Shown here in pieces: positions 27,121 through 35,383 of a DNA stretch of 64,000 nucleotides. The DNA is from Chitinophagaceae bacterium IBVUCB2 (GTDB lineage: Bacteria > Bacteroidota > Bacteroidia > Chitinophagales > Chitinophagaceae): the NCBI GenBank assembly GCA_002127295.1, contig NFUV01000001.1, forward strand, positions 1,860,001 through 1,924,000. The letters run 5' to 3'. Each line of letters starts with the position of its first letter. Within the stretch, counting starts at the first letter, position 1. The notes beneath the pieces were generated by a model, which saw only the letters and a program-made list of their open reading frames with translations, ran no database searches and was not told the DNA's origin. Both the position numbers and the translations under genes were made by a program.

Positions 27121-28449
27121 ATGTCGTTCGTTCTTGAACAATTTTATCGTTTTTTCCAGGGAGTGCTGCTTTTCCAAATTGTCTTTTTGGGAATACTGTA
27201 TACTATTACCCGGAGAAAAGACATTTTTTTCTTCTGTGCTTATTTATTCTTTCAGGCAGTTTATTTTTTCTGGAACGCCCCATATACTTTTTTTAATATA
27301 ACCGAAGAGACGGTTTTTAGCTCTCCTTTGTATGCATATGCCAACACACCGTTAGTTATCATCGGCCATGTATTCTATATTCTTTTCTTAAAAAGTTTTT
27401 TTTCAGGATTGTATCAGAATAAAAAAACAACTCGCCTGATAAATTTCTTATTGTTCATTTCTCCAATTCTAATTCTGATTTCTGTTTTGTCGATTTATAT
27501 CCAACAATCTAATCAGTATATTTTTTACACAGTAAATTTTTTAAGCACTGCGTTGGGAATTTATATTTTATCGGATATCTACACTAAAAAAATAAAAAAT
27601 ACCGGTTGGGTGGCAGCAGGTATTTTGCTTAATATAATTGGTAATGCCCTGACAGTTCTGATGATAATATTAGCAAGGTATAATATTCACCATACCTTAA
27701 CTGATTACTACCCGTTGTTTTTTATGCGCTGTGGTATACTGGCCGATATTTTCTTTTATCTTATTGCGATTCTAAAAAAATGGCAATTCCAGGAAAAGCA
27801 GTTAGCGATAGAAAAGATAGAAAAAGTATTGGCAGTAGAAAAAGTAAGGACTCAGCTAAGTAAAGAATTGCATGATGATATTGGCGGTACACTCAGCGGT
27901 ATTAATATGTATAGCCACCTGGCAAAACAACAAACAACAGAAGGCAACAATGCTGCATCCGATAAAACACTGGATCTGATCCGTCAGGCTTCTGATGAAA
28001 TGATCTATAAATTGAAAGATATTGTATGGGCCATGCAGCCGGGTAACGAAAGCCTGGAGCAGTTAACTGACAAAATTAAAGAGTATGCCATTTTTATTAG
28101 CGGTGCAAAAAAAATTGAATTACAAACACATTTTACACCTGATCAAAACGGAATAAAGCTTTCTGCCGAAACAATGCATCATATTTATTCAATTGCTAAG
28201 GAAGCCTTGAATAATGCAGTGAAGTATAGTGGGGCTACTCTCATCTCTATTAATACAAGTTTCACCAGTGATCATTTTATCCTTAACATTAAAGATACCG
28301 GTGCCGGGTATGACAGGCAGCAGATAGTGGAAGGAAATGGACTGATAAATATGCAGAAAAGAGCCGCTGAGATTGGGGCCGGATTGCAATTGTCGAGCAA
28401 GCTAGGCCATGGTACCGAATTGCAATTAAATATAAAAATCACTCACTGA
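27121..28449 (+). CDS. Membrane sensor histidine kinase (7TM sensor plus HisKA_3)
   Basis: 442 residues. Seven hydrophobic helices (about 10-215) resemble the 7TMR-DISM sensor without its extracellular DISMED domain. They are followed by a coiled coil and the HisKA_3 box VRTQLSKELHDDIGGTLSGI (phospho-acceptor H251), then an HATPase_c with IAKEALNNAVKYSGAT and DTGAGYD. It partners the NarL-type regulator 39 bp downstream. The 3' end of the gene overlaps a copy of the island's 19-bp palindrome: its TGA stop lies inside the motif. The 227 bp upstream (26894-27120) hold no gene. Confidence 0.92.
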   Translation: MSFVLEQFYRFFQGVLLFQIVFLGILYTITRRKDIFFFCAYLFFQAVYFFWNAPYTFFNITEETVFSSPLYAYANTPLVIIGHVFYILFLKSFFSGLYQNKKTTRLINFLLFISPILILISVLSIYIQQSNQYIFYTVNFLSTALGIYILSDIYTKKIKNTGWVAAGILLNIIGNALTVLMIILARYNIHHTLTDYYPLFFMRCGILADIFFYLIAILKKWQFQEKQLAIEKIEKVLAVEKVRTQLSKELHDDIGGTLSGINMYSHLAKQQTTEGNNAASDKTLDLIRQASDEMIYKLKDIVWAMQPGNESLEQLTDKIKEYAIFISGAKKIELQTHFTPDQNGIKLSAETMHHIYSIAKEALNNAVKYSGATLISINTSFTSDHFILNIKDTGAGYDRQQIVEGNGLINMQKRAAEIGAGLQLSSKLGHGTELQLNIKITH

Positions 28450-28455
28450 GGTATT
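28437..28455 (+). promoter_or_regulatory. Operator palindrome copy A, upstream of the NarL-type regulator
   Basis: AATCACTCA-C-TGAGGTATT. The right arm merges with a TTG (28454-28456), and after 24 nt comes TTTA (28481-28484), 4 nt before the regulator ATG. It is the least perfect -7 box, and the short distance implies a leaderless message if it is used. The kinase stop codon lies inside the motif. Confidence 0.6.
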
Positions 28456-28488
28456 GTATAGCATTGAGGAAAAACCCAACTTTACCTA

Positions 28489-29136
28489 ATGGATATAAAG
28501 GTCGCCATATTTGAAGACGGTAAACTGATAAGAGATGCCCTGCAAACTATACTAAATGGTACAGCTGGCTATGTGTGTACAGGTGCTTTTAGCAATGGAA
28601 GCAATTGGGAAGCAGATATACGCCGCAGTAATCCGGATATAATACTAATGGATATTGAAATGCCCGGTCTTGATGGTATTGAGCTAACCCGCCTGGTTAC
28701 ACAAAAATTTGAGCTTGTAAAAGTGCTGATACAAACAGTGTTTGATGATGGCAATAAAATATTCAAAGCATTGTGTGCAGGAGCAAGCGGCTATATTTTG
28801 AAAAATGACCCTCCCAATAAATACTTAGAAGCAATTACAGAAGTGAATAGCGGCGGTTCTTTTATGAATGCTTCTGTAGCCAAAAAAACGTTGAATTTTT
28901 TCACCCAAAAAAATATCATCCTGGTTTCACCCGAAGGAGAAGATTATAAACTAAGTGATCGGGAAAAAGAAATTTTGAAAGAGTTGACAGAAGGGCAACC
29001 ACTTAAAAACATTGCTCCCAAACTTTTTATCAGTGTCGAAACTGTTCGTACACATGTAAAGCATATCTATAAGAAATTACACGTTGCTAACCGCACTGAA
29101 GCTGTAATGAAAGCGGTGCAGCAGGGTATCTGCTAA
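28489..29136 (+). CDS. NarL/LuxR-family response regulator
   Basis: 215 residues. The receiver has IFEDGKLIRDAL, phospho-acceptor D55 in IILMDIEMPG and KNDPP. The C-terminal LuxR-type HTH (about 150-210) reads LSDREKEILKELTEGQPLKNIAPKLF and SVETVRTHVKHIYKKL. It is the cognate regulator of the kinase at 27121. NarL-type proteins bind inverted repeats, and a matching palindrome precedes this gene and four other promoters in the next 6 kb, so it is the obvious candidate to bind them (inference). A lipoprotein gene follows 19 bp downstream. Confidence 0.93.
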   Translation: MDIKVAIFEDGKLIRDALQTILNGTAGYVCTGAFSNGSNWEADIRRSNPDIILMDIEMPGLDGIELTRLVTQKFELVKVLIQTVFDDGNKIFKALCAGASGYILKNDPPNKYLEAITEVNSGGSFMNASVAKKTLNFFTQKNIILVSPEGEDYKLSDREKEILKELTEGQPLKNIAPKLFISVETVRTHVKHIYKKLHVANRTEAVMKAVQQGIC

Positions 29137-29155
29137 TTTATTAACACAATCATTT

Positions 29156-29743
29156 ATGCGACTACTCACTATTCTTGTAATTCCTTTTTTGTTGTATGGT
29201 TGCATTTCCAAAAGGGAGCAAGAAGCAACAGGCAATACCGTTGCGCCCAGTTTTGATGAAAAGAAAGAGCAAGCTGCAATTATGAGTGTGATAGAAAAAG
29301 AAACCGATTGCTTCTTTAAAAGAGATTATGAATGCTGGAAACAATGTTTTGCACAAACGGATTATTCATTCCAGGCCTGGAACAATAGCGATGGCACGGT
29401 AGATACAAAAAGCGGCTGGAAAGAAATAGATAAAAGAATAAAATCCTACTTGACTAATCCTGAAAATCAGCCAAAGAAAAAAAATATGGGGCAAGAACAA
29501 AGTAAGCAAAAAATTTCCAGTAGTCATCCTACAGTGATTCGCAAGAATATGGTATGGAAATTCTTCTCTCCACAACTAGCCTACCTGATGTGGGATCAGT
29601 ATAATAGCGATCCGGATGAAAAAAGATTCACTTTCAGTAAAGACTGCCGGATAATAGAAAAAATCAATAGTGAGTGGAAAATCGTAAATGTAAGTTCTTA
29701 CTGGGACTATAGAAATATGCATAGCTTCGAGTCACTGAAATAG
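29156..29743 (+). CDS. NTF2/SnoaL-like lipoprotein
   Basis: 195 residues with a lipobox (YGC at about residue 16). The body starts with an NTF2-like helix (AIMSVIEKETDCFFKRDYECWKQCFAQTDYSFQAW) and ends in strands with Trp and Tyr (WKIVNVSSYWDYRN), as in DUF4440-type proteins. It lies 19 bp after the NarL regulator and is probably in the same operon. An outer-membrane or periplasmic location is inferred. Confidence 0.72.
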   Translation: MRLLTILVIPFLLYGCISKREQEATGNTVAPSFDEKKEQAAIMSVIEKETDCFFKRDYECWKQCFAQTDYSFQAWNNSDGTVDTKSGWKEIDKRIKSYLTNPENQPKKKNMGQEQSKQKISSSHPTVIRKNMVWKFFSPQLAYLMWDQYNSDPDEKRFTFSKDCRIIEKINSEWKIVNVSSYWDYRNMHSFESLK

Positions 29744-29749
29744 TCGAAA

Positions 29750-29797
29750 AATCACCCACTGAGGTATTGTTTCCGCATTCCCTAATAAAGATGTTTG
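29750..29797 (+). promoter_or_regulatory. Operator palindrome copy B with promoter, upstream of lipoprotein 29829
   Basis: AATCACCCA-C-TGAGGTATT (29750-29768) overlaps TTG (29767-29769). After 24 nt comes TTTG (29794-29797), 31 nt before the ATG. The spacing matches the other copies. Confidence 0.7.
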
Positions 29798-29828
29798 TTG
29801 TGTATTCGTCAAATCAACAAACAATCCC

Positions 29829-30302
29829 ATGCGAAAAAGTACCTCCCTTTTACTGCTTATCATTTTTATAGCTAATGGTTGCAGTAACAGCAATTCTCCT
29901 GAAAAAAATAAAATGACCGGTAGCTGGACGGTTACCAGTGCCTATATCAGCCGGGCAGATAATGACAGCAAATACTTAAGCCAAAGAGAAATAATAGCAG
30001 ACTCTCTACTGAAAGCAGGTCTCAGCGGCACCATCTACACTTTTACAGATGATGGCAAAGTAACCATTCTGCAGAGCGGTGAAAAATTGGAAGGCACTTG
30101 GCAAATGGCGAAGGACAAAGATGGCAAAACAGAACTATCTGCCATTGAAATGAAAGGGGTTGATTGGTCAGAAGCCTGGATGCCATCCATCGGCGAAAGC
30201 CTGTTTTCTTTACAAGGAATGGACGATTATATTAATGCAAAAATTTTTCCGGCAAATGATGATGGGAGTAATGTGGTTTATGAGCTGAGCAGAAAAAAAT
30301 AA
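29829..30302 (+). CDS. Lipocalin-like lipoprotein
   Basis: 157 residues. The signal peptide ends in the lipobox NGC. The mature part opens with KMTGSWTVTSAY and has a strand-rich body with GTIYTFTDDGKVTILQSGEKLEGTWQM, the layout of lipocalin-like domains in Bacteroidota. It is preceded by operator/promoter copy B, so it is a likely target of the NarL-type system. Ligand unknown. Confidence 0.72.
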   Translation: MRKSTSLLLLIIFIANGCSNSNSPEKNKMTGSWTVTSAYISRADNDSKYLSQREIIADSLLKAGLSGTIYTFTDDGKVTILQSGEKLEGTWQMAKDKDGKTELSAIEMKGVDWSEAWMPSIGESLFSLQGMDDYINAKIFPANDDGSNVVYELSRKK

Positions 30303-30386
30303 CCCTTGTCGATTACTAATAGTGAGAGCAAGGATGAGTTGCACAGTTTTTAAAAAGCAGAATCGATATTTCTACAAAACTTGTAT

Positions 30387-30920
30387 ATGAAAAAAATAAC
30401 AACCTTGGCTATATGCCTAGCCTGCACCCTTATCATTTCGTCCTGCACTGATAGCAAAACAAAAGCACAGACAGACGAGCAAAAAGAAACTGGTATTGAA
30501 AAGCGACCAGCATCAGTAATAACAGATAAGCATGTAAAAATTCCGAATAGTAGTTTATACATCATTCCCCCGCCCGGGTTTGCGGTAGATGAAACTTCCG
30601 CTACTTTATCAGAAACTGATGGTACAGCCCATTTTGCTCAAATGAATATAATCAGCGGTTATACCAAGGAAAAACTATTTTCTGATTTTAAATCGGAGGC
30701 GGATAAAAATTTTCCCGGAAGTTGGAAGGAAGAACCTATAACTGTTAACGGCCATACAGCAACTATTTACCGCTGTAAAACAGCCGGATACTCACAATAC
30801 TTCATGTCTTTTACAGATGGCTATGCTGATGAAATGATAATTGCCAACTATGAAGAAAAAGATGCGGCCACCGCTACAGCCATGTACGAAGCTTTGAAAA
30901 CGGTGCTGGTAAAAAAATAG
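30387..30920 (+). CDS. Lipoprotein, paralog of the next gene
   Basis: 177 residues from the ATG at 30387; a TTG two codons earlier is possible. Lipobox SSC near residue 20. The conserved core runs from VKIPNSSLYIIPPPGFAVDETSATL to EAMYEALKTVLVKK and is shared with the protein at 30932 (same order: IPPPGF/QLPKGF, PITVNGHTATIY/PITINGYKGEIK, ALKTVLVKK/ALKTIQVKK), so the two arose by tandem duplication. No known domain. Confidence 0.7.
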   Translation: MKKITTLAICLACTLIISSCTDSKTKAQTDEQKETGIEKRPASVITDKHVKIPNSSLYIIPPPGFAVDETSATLSETDGTAHFAQMNIISGYTKEKLFSDFKSEADKNFPGSWKEEPITVNGHTATIYRCKTAGYSQYFMSFTDGYADEMIIANYEEKDAATATAMYEALKTVLVKK

Positions 30921-30931
30921 ATATTTATACT

Positions 30932-31426
30932 ATGAAAATTCTTTTTTACACTTTTCTGCTTGCATTAATTACCCTGGCCTGTAAAAACAGCAAGGCGGAA
31001 AAACAATCCGGTGCAGATACTATTGCGGCAAATGAAAAGGATACGGCCAAGCTGAGCAATTTTCCCGGCACTGCTATTTACATACAACTACCCAAAGGCT
31101 TTGTATGGAATGAAACAGCGATGGGTTTTTATAAAGAGAAAGATGGTAGTGTAATAAAATATAATGAGTTTAAAAAAATGCGGTATGCAGCGAATATGCC
31201 GGCGGAGGAAACGATGGGCTCACTGACTAACCAGCAGCCAATCACCATCAATGGCTATAAAGGAGAGATAAAAACTTATCAGCAAGGTAGTACGGGCATT
31301 CAACTAGATCTTTCTTTTGGTGATGCTAGCTTTATGGAATTTGTTGAAGCCACCTATTTCTCTCATCAGGAACAAACGGCCAAAGACATACTGGCGGCAT
31401 TGAAAACGATTCAGGTTAAAAAGTAA
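30932..31426 (+). CDS. Lipoprotein, paralog of the preceding gene
   Basis: 164 residues with lipobox LAC near residue 16. The core PGTAIYIQLPKGFVWNETAMGF, PITINGYKGEIKTYQQG and C-terminal ILAALKTIQVKK aligns with the previous protein. Only 11 bp separate the two genes, so they are one transcription unit. Function unknown. Confidence 0.7.
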   Translation: MKILFYTFLLALITLACKNSKAEKQSGADTIAANEKDTAKLSNFPGTAIYIQLPKGFVWNETAMGFYKEKDGSVIKYNEFKKMRYAANMPAEETMGSLTNQQPITINGYKGEIKTYQQGSTGIQLDLSFGDASFMEFVEATYFSHQEQTAKDILAALKTIQVKK

Positions 31427-31452
31427 TAATGGCATTAAATTTTTAGTCCCCG

Positions 31453-31914
31453 GTGAAAGCAATACTATTTTTCATATCCGTTATGTTGTTTTGTACCGCT
31501 GCCTTTACGCAATCCCCTTCTTGTAGCAATGTGATTAAAGAAGATAGTGTACGTTTTTCCAGGAAATCTGTTTTCCTGAATTGGGCTGCTAAGAAGAAAT
31601 TATACCATATAGCCATGGAACTGAACAGGAATCCTGATTGCAGAATAGTGGTTACAGGGTATGGAAACAGTTGTTTAACCTGCCAGCAAACTTCCTGGGA
31701 CAGGTCTTACTCTGTAGTACAATATTTGCGACAAGGCGGAGTAGATTCTTTACGGTTTGTTTTCAGGTACGCCCAGGAAGGGTATAGCCCTTCGGTGGTA
31801 TCCATACGAAACTCTCTACCAGGAGAAGATGGCCCTGCATTGGAAGAACCTCCTTCGCCCTGTTATAGCTATCACGGCTTTCATAAAAAAAGATGCCGGG
31901 GCAAGCGGCTCTAA
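31453..31914 (+). CDS. Secreted OmpA-C-like protein
   Basis: 153 residues from a GTG start. The signal peptide ends TQSP. The core AAKKKLYHIAMELNRNPDCRIVVTGYGNSCLTCQQTSWDRSYSVVQYLRQGGVDSLRF resembles the periplasmic peptidoglycan-binding OmpA domain (VxGxxD...SxxRAxxVxxYL pattern), but the usual Asp/Arg pair is only partly kept and two extra Cys are present. The tail is basic (HKKRCRGKRL). Family call tentative. Confidence 0.6.
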   Translation: MKAILFFISVMLFCTAAFTQSPSCSNVIKEDSVRFSRKSVFLNWAAKKKLYHIAMELNRNPDCRIVVTGYGNSCLTCQQTSWDRSYSVVQYLRQGGVDSLRFVFRYAQEGYSPSVVSIRNSLPGEDGPALEEPPSPCYSYHGFHKKRCRGKRL

Positions 31915-31931
31915 CTTTTATCTCAATTAAA

Positions 31932-31979
31932 AATCACCCGACGGGTGATTGTTTTCTGATGTTGCTATTAATAGGTTTG
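31932..31979 (+). promoter_or_regulatory. Operator palindrome copy C with promoter, upstream of secreted protein 32034
   Basis: AATCACCCG-A-CGGGTGATT (31932-31950) is a perfect palindrome overlapping TTG (31949-31951). After 20 nt stands the full -7 box TAGGTTTG (31972-31979), the clearest promoter of the five. Confidence 0.78.
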
Positions 31980-32033
31980 ATAAGGGATTGCCGAAAACCT
32001 GAAATAGAGTAGGCAGCTATTAAATCAAAAATT

Positions 32034-32396
32034 ATGAAACAGATTATTTTGACAGCCGTTGTTGCTTTTCTTTTTTGCGTTGGCGCAAACGCACAGTCAC
32101 CAAAAACAAACCTTAATTCAAAAGTAGAAGCCGGTAGAAAAGCGAATGGTCCGGTGCTGATACATACCGAAGAAGGAAAGTATAAAGTATATGCTTCGTT
32201 CAAAAAAAACAAAGTGAGTGAGTATTATGCAATTGATATGGACGGAAATAAAATTGATGCTACATATCCAGTAGCTAATTCGGGTCGATGCTATTTTTGT
32301 ATATCGAATGGGGGGCCAAGTGACAGAATTTGTTACGAAGTTGAATGTGACTTTATTCCACGTCCTAAGCAGGTGGCAACTAAGAGCAGGAATTAA
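32034..32396 (+). CDS. Secreted Cys-containing protein, family A member 1
   Basis: 120 residues, signal peptide ending NAQS. The mature part has the family pattern RKANGPVLIHTEEGKYKVYASFKKNKV, then a Cys-x2-Cys (CYFC) and a later CYEVEC. The same order occurs in the protein at 36914 (RKANGKVLAFTD, YKKSKV, CKVC, CWQIKC) and in the pseudogene near 35100-35383. It is driven by operator copy C. Function unknown; the Cys pairs suggest disulfides or metal binding. Confidence 0.68.
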   Translation: MKQIILTAVVAFLFCVGANAQSPKTNLNSKVEAGRKANGPVLIHTEEGKYKVYASFKKNKVSEYYAIDMDGNKIDATYPVANSGRCYFCISNGGPSDRICYEVECDFIPRPKQVATKSRN

Positions 32397-32586
32397 TTTT
32401 TATCATTCCCTCTTAAACTATCATTTCTTATTATTTATTTCAACGGCATTCGTCGCAGATATTTCGCTTTGGTTTCAAAAAATGATTTTGGCATTCCCCG
32501 CTGCAGATATTTTAAAGGCATGCTCCATATAGCCTATATGAAAGATGAGGTATAACAGAAAAATAAATTGTGCGGCGGTGAAGTAA

Positions 32587-32633
32587 AATCACCCAACGGG
32601 TGATTGTTTTTGCCTTAGATATATAGCAATTTG
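32587..32633 (+). promoter_or_regulatory. Operator palindrome copy D with promoter, upstream of the CARDB-like gene
   Basis: AATCACCCA-A-CGGGTGATT (32587-32605) overlaps TTG (32604-32606). TTTG (32630-32633) follows after 23 nt, one less than the other copies. It precedes the gene at 32650 by 16 nt. Confidence 0.7.
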
Positions 32634-32649
32634 TAAGCAAACCTTATAT

Positions 32650-33540
32650 ATGAAATCTTACTTTGTATCTGCTGTATTAATACTAACCTTGTCAGCACCA
32701 GTCAAAAAACAAGACGCTAAACAAGCTAAGCCTGATTTAGTGGTAAAAGCAACGCAATTCAGATTAGCAAACGAGTATGGGAAAATTTTTTTTAAAGTAG
32801 AGCTGACTAATATTGGTAATGCCCCTTGTAACATTAACGGCACTTTTGACATTCGAACTTCGCTTTCTACTGATGACATTATTGGTAACGACCAAGTATC
32901 TGGGGGCAGGGCAATACCCGTATCATTTATCCTGGAACCCGGAAAAGTTAGGTTGCTAAATGACGAGTTTTTTCTAAGTTTTAACGAACTAGAAAATCTG
33001 CAAAACAATCCCTATTGTGTAATAGAAATCCATAGTATACACCCCAATCTGGAAAGTAACTACGAAAACAATAAATCCATTTACAAACATGGCTTTCCTA
33101 GAAAAAAAGGTGAAGGTGTGAGCAAGCCAATCGGCGACCTTCCTGTAAAACAAGCGGAACGTTTTGTGGACTTGCAGTTATCCGTTAGCAATGTTGTCAG
33201 AGAAATTAAAACAGATGTTGCAGGAAAGCAGTATAAAGAGTATACATATGATGCTATTTTAAAAAACATTGGTAATACTGATGCTGTAATAGACTTAGAT
33301 AAGCCGGTAACCTTACAGTACCGTAGAGTAGTTTCTTGCCAGGATACCACCGGAGACAATGCTGTTGCCAGACCCCAAAATCCAAATCTAGCCTATATCA
33401 TAAAGCCCGGAACTAGCATTGTACTTTACGGTAGAAAAGCAATGCAGGCTGTGGATGCAACAACTGCTTTACTCATCGAAATGCTATTTGCTGGAACCGA
33501 AAGAAACTTGCATAACAACATAGCCTGTATACCAAATTAA
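32650..33540 (+). CDS. Secreted protein with two CARDB-like immunoglobulin-type domains
   Basis: 296 residues with a signal peptide. Two repeats of the CARDB pattern (adhesion-type beta sandwich) are visible: PDLVVKATQFRLANEYGKIFFKVELTNIGNAPC in the first half and VDLQLSVSNVVREIK...YDAILKNIGNTDAV in the second, each followed by SIHPNLESNYENN or a similar turn. CARDB domains mediate cell-surface binding in other bacteria. It is preceded by operator copy D. Confidence 0.75.
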   Translation: MKSYFVSAVLILTLSAPVKKQDAKQAKPDLVVKATQFRLANEYGKIFFKVELTNIGNAPCNINGTFDIRTSLSTDDIIGNDQVSGGRAIPVSFILEPGKVRLLNDEFFLSFNELENLQNNPYCVIEIHSIHPNLESNYENNKSIYKHGFPRKKGEGVSKPIGDLPVKQAERFVDLQLSVSNVVREIKTDVAGKQYKEYTYDAILKNIGNTDAVIDLDKPVTLQYRRVVSCQDTTGDNAVARPQNPNLAYIIKPGTSIVLYGRKAMQAVDATTALLIEMLFAGTERNLHNNIACIPN

Positions 33541-33629
33541 GAAATCGATTATACCTATAATGGAGTAGTTGTAGGATGATTAATGTTTTGTGCTTGCTTC
33601 AACAATTTGATACCATTCAACCAACTATC

Positions 33630-34106
33630 ATGAAAATTACAACAGCAATTTTGATTTGTCTGCTTTTGGCAACACAGAACCTTGCTGCGCAAGTAAAAAA
33701 CATACACCGGGTTAGTAACAAGATCCCAGATAGCCTGGTAATGGAAAAAATTATCGGTGTTGATACCGTAAAATCGGTAGACGAAAAATATTTTAAAGAA
33801 GGTTGGAATGTATTTCATCTTGCCCCAGGAAAGTTCATGTACATAGATTACAAAAGCAATGTGGTGCGGGGATTTTTGCTTTCAGATACCAGTGGCATAG
33901 TAAGAGGTGCTGCCTTTTTCAGCGATGACAAATCAGTTCCATTTTGGTGTGCTATTTCACAGTGTAGTTGCAAAGGATTAAAAGAATGTGAAGGAATGTT
34001 TGCTGCCGGTGAGTGCAAGTATAACAAAGTTTGTATTGGTAACACTTGTTTCTGCACTAAGCCGTACAAAACGATCAAAAGTAAGATAAGAGTGGAGAAT
34101 AATTGA
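33630..34106 (+). CDS. Secreted Cys-rich protein, unknown family
   Basis: 158 residues from the ATG at 33630, where a signal peptide ending LAAQ begins. The C-terminal third is Cys-rich (CAISQCSCKGLKECEGM, ECKYNKVCIGNTCFCTKPY) with nine Cys, suggesting disulfides. The stretch preceding it (YIDYKSNVVRGFLLSDTSGIVRGAAF) weakly resembles the corresponding part of the protein at 34218. It follows the CARDB-like gene by 89 bp. Unknown function. Confidence 0.65.
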   Translation: MKITTAILICLLLATQNLAAQVKNIHRVSNKIPDSLVMEKIIGVDTVKSVDEKYFKEGWNVFHLAPGKFMYIDYKSNVVRGFLLSDTSGIVRGAAFFSDDKSVPFWCAISQCSCKGLKECEGMFAAGECKYNKVCIGNTCFCTKPYKTIKSKIRVENN

Positions 34107-34151
34107 GAACGGAATGTTACTATAAAAGTATAGTTGCCACTTATTTTTTAA

Positions 34152-34199
34152 AATACCCCAATGGGTGATTGATTAGTAATAACGGCAGATGTATGTTTA
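34152..34199 (+). promoter_or_regulatory. Operator palindrome copy E with promoter, upstream of secreted protein 34218
   Basis: AATACCCCA-A-TGGGTGATT (34152-34170) overlaps TTG (34169-34171). After 20 nt comes TATGTTTA (34192-34199), a near-consensus -7 box, 18 nt before the ATG. The left arm has two changes from consensus. Confidence 0.68.
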
Positions 34200-34217
34200 A
34201 TTATTAAATCTTAAATA

Positions 34218-34847
34218 ATGAAAATTCAACTACTACTTAGCATTGCCCTAATTGTAAGCCAGCTATTACATGCTCAAGCACCCAAAGGCCCAGGAGGAAA
34301 AGCTCTTTTTAAAAAGGGAGATTGTAAAAGTGGAGGTGTCAACTTAAATGTATGTATCTATTGTGAGGATAAGGAGCTTACGAAGAATTGTAAAGAATAC
34401 ATATGTACAGATAATGGAACTTGTACTGAGCCCCCTTTTAAAAAAAACAATGAGCAGATTGTACGAACAAATGTAACCGGTATAAAATATAGAGTACTGG
34501 GAAAGGGCGATACTACTTCTAAGCTACCAAAGGGAACCGAATTTGTAAATGGTAAGGTAACTGTAAAAAGTGGCTATAAGGCAGTGTACTCATCTGATAG
34601 GAAAATGGTCTTCGTTCTTTCCAGCAATGGAAATGGAATTAAAGGAGCATTTAGGTGTGATTGTGGTAGTGGATCAGGTTCATGTAGACTTGCAACTTTG
34701 GGTGACGCTTTAAGCTGTGGAGGAGATACCTGCTGTGGATTGCTTATAACAATAGATGATTTTTCCGGACTAACTATGCAGGCTGCTGAAAAATCACCAG
34801 AAAAACTTACATGGAAGAAAGTTGTCTTACCAACAAAATCAAATTAA
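34218..34847 (+). CDS. Secreted Cys-rich protein
   Basis: 209 residues with a signal peptide ending LHAQ. Two Cys-rich stretches are visible: CKSGGVNLNVCIYCEDKEL to CTDNGTC near the start, and CDCGSGSGSCRLATLGDALSCGGDTCC near the end. The middle (GYKAVYSSDRKMVFVLSSNGNGIKGAF) is beta-rich. It is driven by operator copy E and followed directly by a degraded gene. No known domain. Confidence 0.68.
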   Translation: MKIQLLLSIALIVSQLLHAQAPKGPGGKALFKKGDCKSGGVNLNVCIYCEDKELTKNCKEYICTDNGTCTEPPFKKNNEQIVRTNVTGIKYRVLGKGDTTSKLPKGTEFVNGKVTVKSGYKAVYSSDRKMVFVLSSNGNGIKGAFRCDCGSGSGSCRLATLGDALSCGGDTCCGLLITIDDFSGLTMQAAEKSPEKLTWKKVVLPTKSN

Positions 34848-34857
34848 TACATCTTCT

Positions 34858-35383
34858 ATGCAAAAATTATTCTTACTAGTAGCGTTGTTAAGTAAAACAG
34901 CGTTGTTTCATGTCCAAAAAATAAAAACTAATAATATAAACACTACGAACAAACTGCGGGATAACTTTTACCAATCGTAAAATAGAATGCTTTGAACCTG
35001 AGTGTTGCTTTTTATACTCTATTGAATCCAAGACTCTTTTTGCAAATAGTCCGGCGGGTGCTAATAGTGCTGACATAAAATGGCATTAGATTCCAAAAAC
35101 ACAACCGTCACCAGTAACCACCAGCCCTAACCGAATAGATATTACTGACCAAATCAATAAAAAAAAGATCACAAACGGAACAGAGATGGTTTATGAAACA
35201 AATGCTAATTCTAAAGTTTATGCTACCTATAAAAACGGCAAGCTTACAGAATGGTAGGGTATGGGAGAAGATGGTAGAAAAGTAAAATCGACCCAGCTAG
35301 GAATAACACCAACTACTTGTGAAGATTGTTTAGTGTTACCTAATGGAACAATGGCTTGAAAAAATGTACACCAATCCAAGTGA
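34858..35383 (+). pseudogene. Degraded secreted-protein gene(s), family A member 2
   Basis: The gap 34848-35502 lacks an intact gene, but an ATG at 34858 opens a signal-peptide-like stretch (MQKLFLLVALLSKTALF). A frameshift near 34970 leads into a second frame that is readable to 35383. That frame contains three in-frame stops (TAG 35087, TAG 35255, TGA 35357). Its later part, TNGTEMVYETNANSKV, YATYKNGKLTEW, GEDGRKVK and CEDCLVLPNGTMA, follows the pattern of the secreted family at 32034 and 36914, and the TGA falls where those proteins have Cys. Hence it is a decayed paralog, possibly joined to the remnant of another gene. Confidence 0.7.

Follow-up and report, generated by a model that had tools for sequence, protein, structure and literature searches.

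Autoregulating two-component systems of the NarL/FixJ type, in which the response regulator carries a LuxR-type helix-turn-helix, include VraSR, LiaSR, DesKR, and DevR. Class II activators of the LuxR and CAP type act from a dimer site centred near -42. To our knowledge, few operators of simple two-component systems have been described in environmental Bacteroidota. The window considered here (the whole stretch of DNA analysed, 64,000 nucleotides; positions 1,860,001 to 1,924,000 of the forward strand of contig NFUV01000001.1, assembly GCA_002127295.1) comes from Chitinophagaceae bacterium IBVUCB2 and contains a sensor kinase gene, an adjoining NarL-type response regulator gene, and an island of downstream genes interspersed with copies of an operator-like palindrome, each fused to a promoter element. 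The locus probably encodes a self-regulating two-component module that activates the island genes from class II positions. Like the VraSR, LiaSR, DesKR, and DevR systems, it combines a HisKA_3 kinase with a receiver-GerE regulator and inverted-repeat sites, and it would also regulate itself, although both binding and autoregulation in the window are predictions. It is unlike those systems in that the -33 element of a Bacteroidota promoter is contained in the operator, at a fixed distance of 24 nucleotides (N24) from the -7 box, the regulator mRNA is predicted to be leaderless, the output is a local set of secreted proteins, and paralogues possess operators of their own.

The Bacteroidota housekeeping promoter consists of a -33 TTTG and a -7 TAnnTTTG element (PMC6847099, PMC7366714, PMC9723704), and the TTG and TTTG or TTTA boxes of the window lie at the matching distance. 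The -33 element is much less evident in Flavobacterium johnsoniae (PMC6847099), whereas in the window it is part of a conserved operator. The PM2 motif of Bacteroides thetaiotaomicron is nearly palindromic, has elements at -10 and -30, and is associated with 75 coding genes and the small RNA GibS (PMC7366714). The window's operators resemble PM2 in being near-palindromic elements upstream of starts, and both kinds of element also occur before a small RNA (GibS for PM2, a candidate in a sister sub-family here); they differ in operator position and in the local output, a comparison made with the published description of PM2 and not with its letters. Among the open-licence papers listed by literature searches, none dealt with the operator family, the way it is fused to the -33 box, the leaderless promoter of the regulator, or the small RNA. 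The component parts are of known kinds.

Five elements were read directly in the sequence at 28437, 29750, 31932, 32587, and 34152. Each is a palindrome-like stretch of about 19 base pairs (bp) ending in TTG, and the distances from this TTG to the following TTTG or TTTA are 24, 24, 24, 23 (32587), and 24 nucleotides. The copies depart from AATCACCC-N3-GGGTGATT by 4, 3, 0, 0, and 2 mismatches, respectively, and those at 28437 and 29750 have the asymmetric form AATCACYCACTGAGGTATTG. The operators, each identified by sequence and pattern search, and their -7 elements are as follows.

28437..28456, + strand: operator 1 with the -33 TTG (AATCACTCACTGAGGTATTG), promoter of the regulator, overlapping the kinase stop codon
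28477..28484, + strand: -7 element 1 (CAACTTTA), TTTA at N24 from the TTG, 4 nucleotides before the regulator ATG
29750..29769, + strand: operator 2 with the -33 TTG (AATCACCCACTGAGGTATTG)
29790..29797, + strand: -7 element 2 (GATGTTTG)
31932..31951, + strand: operator 3 with the -33 TTG (AATCACCCGACGGGTGATTG), perfect half-sites
31972..31979, + strand: -7 element 3 (TAGGTTTG), full TAnnTTTG
32587..32606, + strand: operator 4 with the -33 TTG (AATCACCCAACGGGTGATTG), perfect half-sites, N23
32626..32633, + strand: -7 element 4 (GCAATTTG)
34152..34171, + strand: operator 5 with the -33 TTG (AATACCCCAATGGGTGATTG)
34192..34199, + strand: -7 element 5 (TATGTTTA)

A search of the window allowing up to three mismatches recovers four of the five copies (0.24 expected), and none of 100 shuffles reaches four. 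When up to four mismatches are combined with the TTG and N23/24-TTTR, exactly the five copies are found on both strands of the 64 kilobases (kb), all in + orientation; under a first-order Markov null this combined pattern has a mean of 0.03 and a maximum of 1 in 60 simulations. A preliminary description of this DNA had reported five palindromes fused to TTG, spacings of 24 nucleotides in four copies and 23 in one, a full -7 box in one copy, and a constancy of spacing beyond chance, and each of these points is borne out: the full box is that at 31972-31979, the only TAnnTTTG among the five. One copy was correctly said to precede a NarL-type regulator gene (operator 1, before 28489). The term intergenic needs correction for this same copy, since 13 of its 19 bases, stop codon included, lie inside the kinase open reading frame (ORF) at 27121-28449, and the adjoining kinase had gone unmentioned.

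The -7 box has the coordinates T-12 A-11 T-8 T-7 T-6 G-5, followed by 4-5 nucleotides to the start (PMC6847099). These coordinates, which are not mapped starts, place the operator centres of the window at -43, -43, -43, -42, and -43, with the TTG at -35..-33. The promoters are of the Bacteroidota housekeeping kind, with a TTG-type -33 element and a TTTG-type -7 element at N24 in four of five and N23 in the fifth. As predicted from the -7 coordinates, the operators have the placement of class II activator sites, which are centred near -41.5 and overlap the -33/-35 element; they resemble the LuxR- and CAP-type activators in a predicted centre near -42.

The predicted transcript start of the regulator gene falls at about 28489, the A of its ATG, and its mRNA is predicted to be leaderless. 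For the promoters at operators 2 to 5, leaders of 27, 50, 12, and 14 nucleotides are predicted, respectively. In a set of 56 non-redundant paralogous regulators of the genus (at least 36% identity), 31 have TTTR 4-5 nucleotides before the ATG, compared with 38 (gap of 4) and 22 (gap of 5) of 596 other ORFs, about 10% in all, a control figure that misplaced starts may lower because the control ORFs begin at the first ATG. The same arrangement occurs in 2 of 17 more distant regulators, and in Pedobacter loci L151, L153, and L155 the TTTR lies 16-17 nucleotides before the matched start, which gives a short leader. In Flavobacterium psychrophilum, 5.5% of the mRNAs with mapped starts are leaderless (PMC9723704).

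The same regulator and operators could also work by repression, with the bound dimer occluding the -33 box in the absence of a releasing signal. This fits with the -33 TTG being part of the operator and with the presence of at least one full-consensus -7 box (TAGGTTTG at 31972). However, the predicted centre at -42/-43 in all five copies is the class II activator position of LuxR- and CAP-type proteins, and 23 of the 31 paralogue promoters with TTTR 4-5 nucleotides before the ATG have no TA at -12/-11, which suits promoters needing help. Repression is considered unlikely, and there are good grounds to expect that the regulator would activate.

The operator is conserved together with the regulator. 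A search by named records kept 80 loci, 15 of which have a regulator of at least 60% identity; 14 of these were scanned and L154 (a 4.4-kb contig) was dropped. In the 14 loci, whose regulators are 60-87% identical, the operator AATCACCYRATGGGGTATTG occurs upstream of the regulator in 10 and after its stop codon in 12 (threshold, 15/20 matching positions). At 16/20 or more there are 34 matches on both strands of 557 kb, 21 of them near the regulator; TTTR follows at exactly N24 in 20 of the 34 and in no more than two at each other distance between 14 and 35, while the reversed and rotated consensus have no matches in these loci. The scanned records are named Chitinophagaceae bacterium (L145, L147, L150, L157, and L173), Agriterribacter humi (L148), Pedobacter (L151-L153, L155, and L156), Mucilaginibacter (L158), Sphingobacteriales bacterium (L146), and Bacteroidetes bacterium (L149), and thus the operator is present at regulator orthologues in at least two families, the Chitinophagaceae and the Sphingobacteriaceae. 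Because it is the asymmetric form that is widespread, the typical copy is better represented by 28437 and 29750 than by 31932 and 32587, which are perfect palindromes.

In Chitinophagaceae bacterium UBA2789 (genome G004, L145), the regulator is 87-88% identical and the island is reshuffled, with five operator copies of its own. Of these, one is 75 bp upstream of a gene for a different type of kinase (TPR by eye), one is 53 bp upstream of the regulator, and the remaining three precede secreted-protein or lipoprotein genes in an order different from that of the window. In the orthologous loci, the gene after the second operator encodes by eye mostly a lipoprotein or secreted protein; the exceptions are a DUF418 protein (L146) and a phosphoesterase-family protein of doubtful secretion (L148). 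In L150, which has no operators there, a kinase-like protein follows the regulator. Across several genera of two families, the operator stays with the regulator while the neighbouring genes change.

Because of this co-conservation, the regulator is very probably the binder of the operators. Alternatively, the palindromes could be bound by another regulator and their proximity to this one could be mere linkage. The genome does contain 15 other matches to the regulator that span both receiver and helix-turn-helix (query end residue at least 199), and binding by the regulator is itself a prediction. Yet operator and regulator persist together while their neighbours change, paralogues carry their own palindromes at the equivalent place, and there are no copies with 0-2 mismatches elsewhere in the genome, which makes another binder highly improbable. 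The preliminary description had found motif and regulator side by side and proposed activator sites bound by this regulator; the association holds in the relatives, and the proposal gains comparative support, with binding and activation still at the level of sequence-based prediction.

The palindromes might also be intrinsic terminators of the upstream genes. Folding gives 8-bp hairpins at 31932 and 32587 (z -2.7 and -2.2); both are followed by T-rich sequence and were flagged by a terminator scan. For the copies at 28437, 29750, and 34152, in contrast, folding is at best slightly stronger than that of shuffled sequences (z 0.07, -0.55, and 0.08), orthologous copies are asymmetric, and the palindromes keep a fixed distance to the -7 box that follows. 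Termination is therefore rejected as the main explanation and is highly improbable as such; the copies at 31932 and 32587 may double as terminators.

The motif is concentrated at this locus. In the 4.0-megabase genome, the only copies with 0-2 mismatches are three, all in the island; at up to three mismatches there are 21 places compared with 8 for a reversed control, and the remainder are scattered (one was inspected at G000 C2:561770, L008). The exact 20-mer occurs only in the window's genome (G000) among 394 family genomes, a sample that does not include G004. With up to two mismatches there is a match in 16 of 42 genus genomes, and a cluster only in G000 and G004. The regulon looks strictly local.

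Paralogous regulators have the same layout with different sequences. The upstream regions of 19 of the 56 genus paralogues contain TTG-N24-TTTR, compared with 0-9 at other distances and a shuffle mean of 1.3 (maximum 5). A palindrome ending N24 before TTTR is found in 27 of the 56, compared with 1-7 at distances of 14-21 and 28-35; this test tolerates a few bases, and counts are 12-27 at distances of 22-27. It is clearer than a strict perfect-palindrome test (7/8 pairs), which gives a modest peak in 72 regulator upstream regions (9/72 centred at -45 to -40, 0-3 elsewhere). The palindromes at this spot are specific to sub-families, for example ATACCACTTTGTGGTATTG, TTTCACATTAATATGTGATTG, and TATCCCCACTTTAGGGGATA. 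When the sequence just after the regulator stop codon was compared with the regulator's upstream region with no operator assumed, 18 of 59 loci matched at p<0.05 (3 expected), including a few pairs unlike operators (L056, L084, and L102). Of 25 loci inspected downstream of the regulator, 17 have another ORF close by, which is signal-like in 15 (binomial p 0.001 against a background of 50%). In 59 more distant regulators, mostly from Bacteroidota and some from other phyla, palindromes of other sequences again peak at N23-25 (19-21/59, compared with 4-9 at distances of 14-21 and 28-35). By eye, flavobacterial regulators of the same clan (L183, L185, L187, L188, L189, L192, and L205) have other upstream palindromes, such as AAGGCAACTGCCTTAT and AATACG..CGTATTG.

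Operator distance correlates with helix-turn-helix distance (rho 0.28, 0/2000 permutations; spacer 0.08, upstream flank 0.11) in a Mantel test of 27 operators, which does not separate function from common descent and in which three chance palindromes in coding sequence (L101, L067, and L072) were kept. Removal of the largest sub-family (n=15) leaves a rho of 0.305 (10/1000 permutations; spacer 0.07). For the recognition-helix stretch alone the values are 0.19 for the operator, 0.18 for the flank, and 0.10 for the spacer. Operator sequence appears to track the DNA-binding domain, though not clearly the recognition helix alone.

Several observations weigh against the self-activating module. The two limits of the Mantel test and the recognition-helix values are among them, as is the operator covering the -33 box, a position that could also serve repression. 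L150 and L152 have no operator of at least 15/20 before or after the regulator, and L156 and L157 have none upstream. The exact TTG-N24-TTTR is missing upstream of 37 of the 56 genus paralogues and is not enriched in the 59 distant regulators (4/59; 6 at N32). Pattern searches of the genome, genus, and family found no genome-wide regulon, and the regulon appears confined to the island.

In the VRKHVY sister sub-family, the second operator has a different kind of target. No ORF of at least 80 amino acids starts within 700 bp after the regulator in eight of nine loci (L077 has one of 122 amino acids). Instead, a conserved stretch of 114-158 nucleotides follows the second operator and ends in an intrinsic terminator, which makes it a candidate non-coding small RNA. 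TAnnTTTG is present at N24 in 19/19 of the candidate loci, and in four of them the operator ends in TTT instead of TTG. Conserved segments of the candidate are predicted to be unpaired (AACCATTAACC and GGGGCCTTGATCAAAACCGT), and five of eight consensus pairs are changed on both sides (18 of 19 loci aligned). A search of Rfam with one candidate locus gave no family reaching the cut-off. A covariance model finds the candidate in 21 of 42 genus genomes, including the window's own (G000 C1:1277774-1277907, L095:8774-8909); the match in G025 is partial, and a second match in G009 (L246) has no operator. The candidate is also present in L067, L072, L075-L078, L080, L084, L089, L091-L093, L096, L098-L101, and L104. 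Family-wide it occurs in 8 of 107 genomes and 8 of 101 genera, the window's genome included. All seven RNA loci outside the genus have ATACCAC-N4-GTGGTAT upstream, followed at N24 by TTTG (2), TTTA (2), or TTCG (3), and a VRKHVY regulator lies just upstream in six of the seven. L243 (G028) and L245 (G025) keep the RNA candidate and an operator-like palindrome, and the fetched flank contains no VRKHVY regulator.

The genes of the locus are as follows.

27121..28449, + strand: sensor histidine kinase, 442 amino acids (Pfam: 7TMR-DISM_7TM, HisKA_3, and HATPase_c)
28489..29136, + strand: NarL/FixJ-type response regulator, 215 amino acids (Pfam: receiver and GerE, LuxR-type, helix-turn-helix)
29156..29743, + strand: lipoprotein directly after the regulator, no operator of its own (ORF, signal heuristic)
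29829..30302, + strand: lipoprotein, first behind operator 2 (ORF, signal heuristic)
30387-30920, 30932-31426, and 31453-31914, + strand: three more lipoprotein or secreted-protein genes, no operator in between
32034..32396, + strand: secreted protein behind operator 3; G004 has a 60% identical protein downstream of a similar promoter
32650..33540, + strand: secreted protein behind operator 4; 48% identical protein in G004
33630..34106, + strand: secreted Cys-containing protein, no operator of its own (ORF, signal heuristic)
34218..34847, + strand: secreted Cys-rich protein behind operator 5; 50% identical protein in G004

The kinase and regulator form a NarL/FixJ-type two-component pair by their domains (PF07730, HisKA_3, 2.2e-11 and HATPase_c, 2.1e-07 in the adjoining kinase; PF00072, receiver, 1.3e-20 and PF00196, GerE, 1.2e-18 in the regulator) and by the receiver Asp, Thr, and Lys, which by eye are the D in LMDIEM, the T in LIQT, and the K in LKND. 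ORFs of 442 amino acids with a similar start precede the regulator in L147, L148, and L149. The lipoprotein gene at 29156..29743 is probably co-transcribed with the regulator. All nine same-strand genes after the regulator (29156 to 34847) look like lipoprotein or signal-peptide genes by a crude hydrophobicity heuristic, in agreement with the preliminary assignment of the targets as secreted proteins or lipoproteins, but this heuristic is weak alone since 346 of 695 ORFs in the fetched loci also pass it. No Pfam family reaches its cut-off in any of the nine. Via their G004 homologues, the island proteins at 30387 and 30932 look related to each other, as do those at 32034 and 36914, which suggests a duplication of targets. 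By eye, 34860-35380 looks like a broken relative of the 32034-type gene. A UvrD-like helicase gene lies on the opposite strand to the right of the island, likewise in G004. In G004, a 152-amino-acid ORF (L039:6907-7365) matches two separate parts of the 7TM kinase, and the TPR-type kinase with its own operator (L039:7482-9311) lies between this ORF and the regulator, an arrangement suggestive of decay and replacement of the 7TM kinase.

In the proposed module, the membrane kinase (27121) would phosphorylate the regulator (28489), a dimer of which would bind the ~19-bp inverted repeat, centred near -43 and ending in the -33 TTG. The bound dimer would recruit RNA polymerase to the mostly weak -7 box. 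In this way the regulator may amplify itself through operator 1, whose promoter shares sequence with the 3' end of the kinase gene and would give the predicted leaderless mRNA, and may switch on the adjacent secreted-protein and lipoprotein genes.

The balance of the comparisons leans towards a standard circuit of this NarL-type clan across the Chitinophagaceae, the Sphingobacteriaceae, and perhaps the phylum, in which all of the following would hold together. Each regulator would have private operators fused to the -33 box; the copy at the end of the kinase gene would drive transcription of the regulator itself, often as a leaderless mRNA; the copy after the regulator stop codon would drive an adjacent output, which is a new small RNA in one sub-family and otherwise a secreted protein or lipoprotein; and the operator sequences would be a readable code tied to the DNA-binding domain. 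The fixed geometry (operator-TTG-N24-TTTR before and right after the regulator) allows operators to be read from genomes and paired with their regulators, and such pairs are a natural data set for the recognition code of LuxR-type domains. It also points to regulator mRNAs that lack leaders and to two-component control of a candidate small RNA for which no Rfam family reaches its cut-off. Related sensor pairs of this bacterial group seem to be arranged likewise, with a distinct variant of the signal in each.

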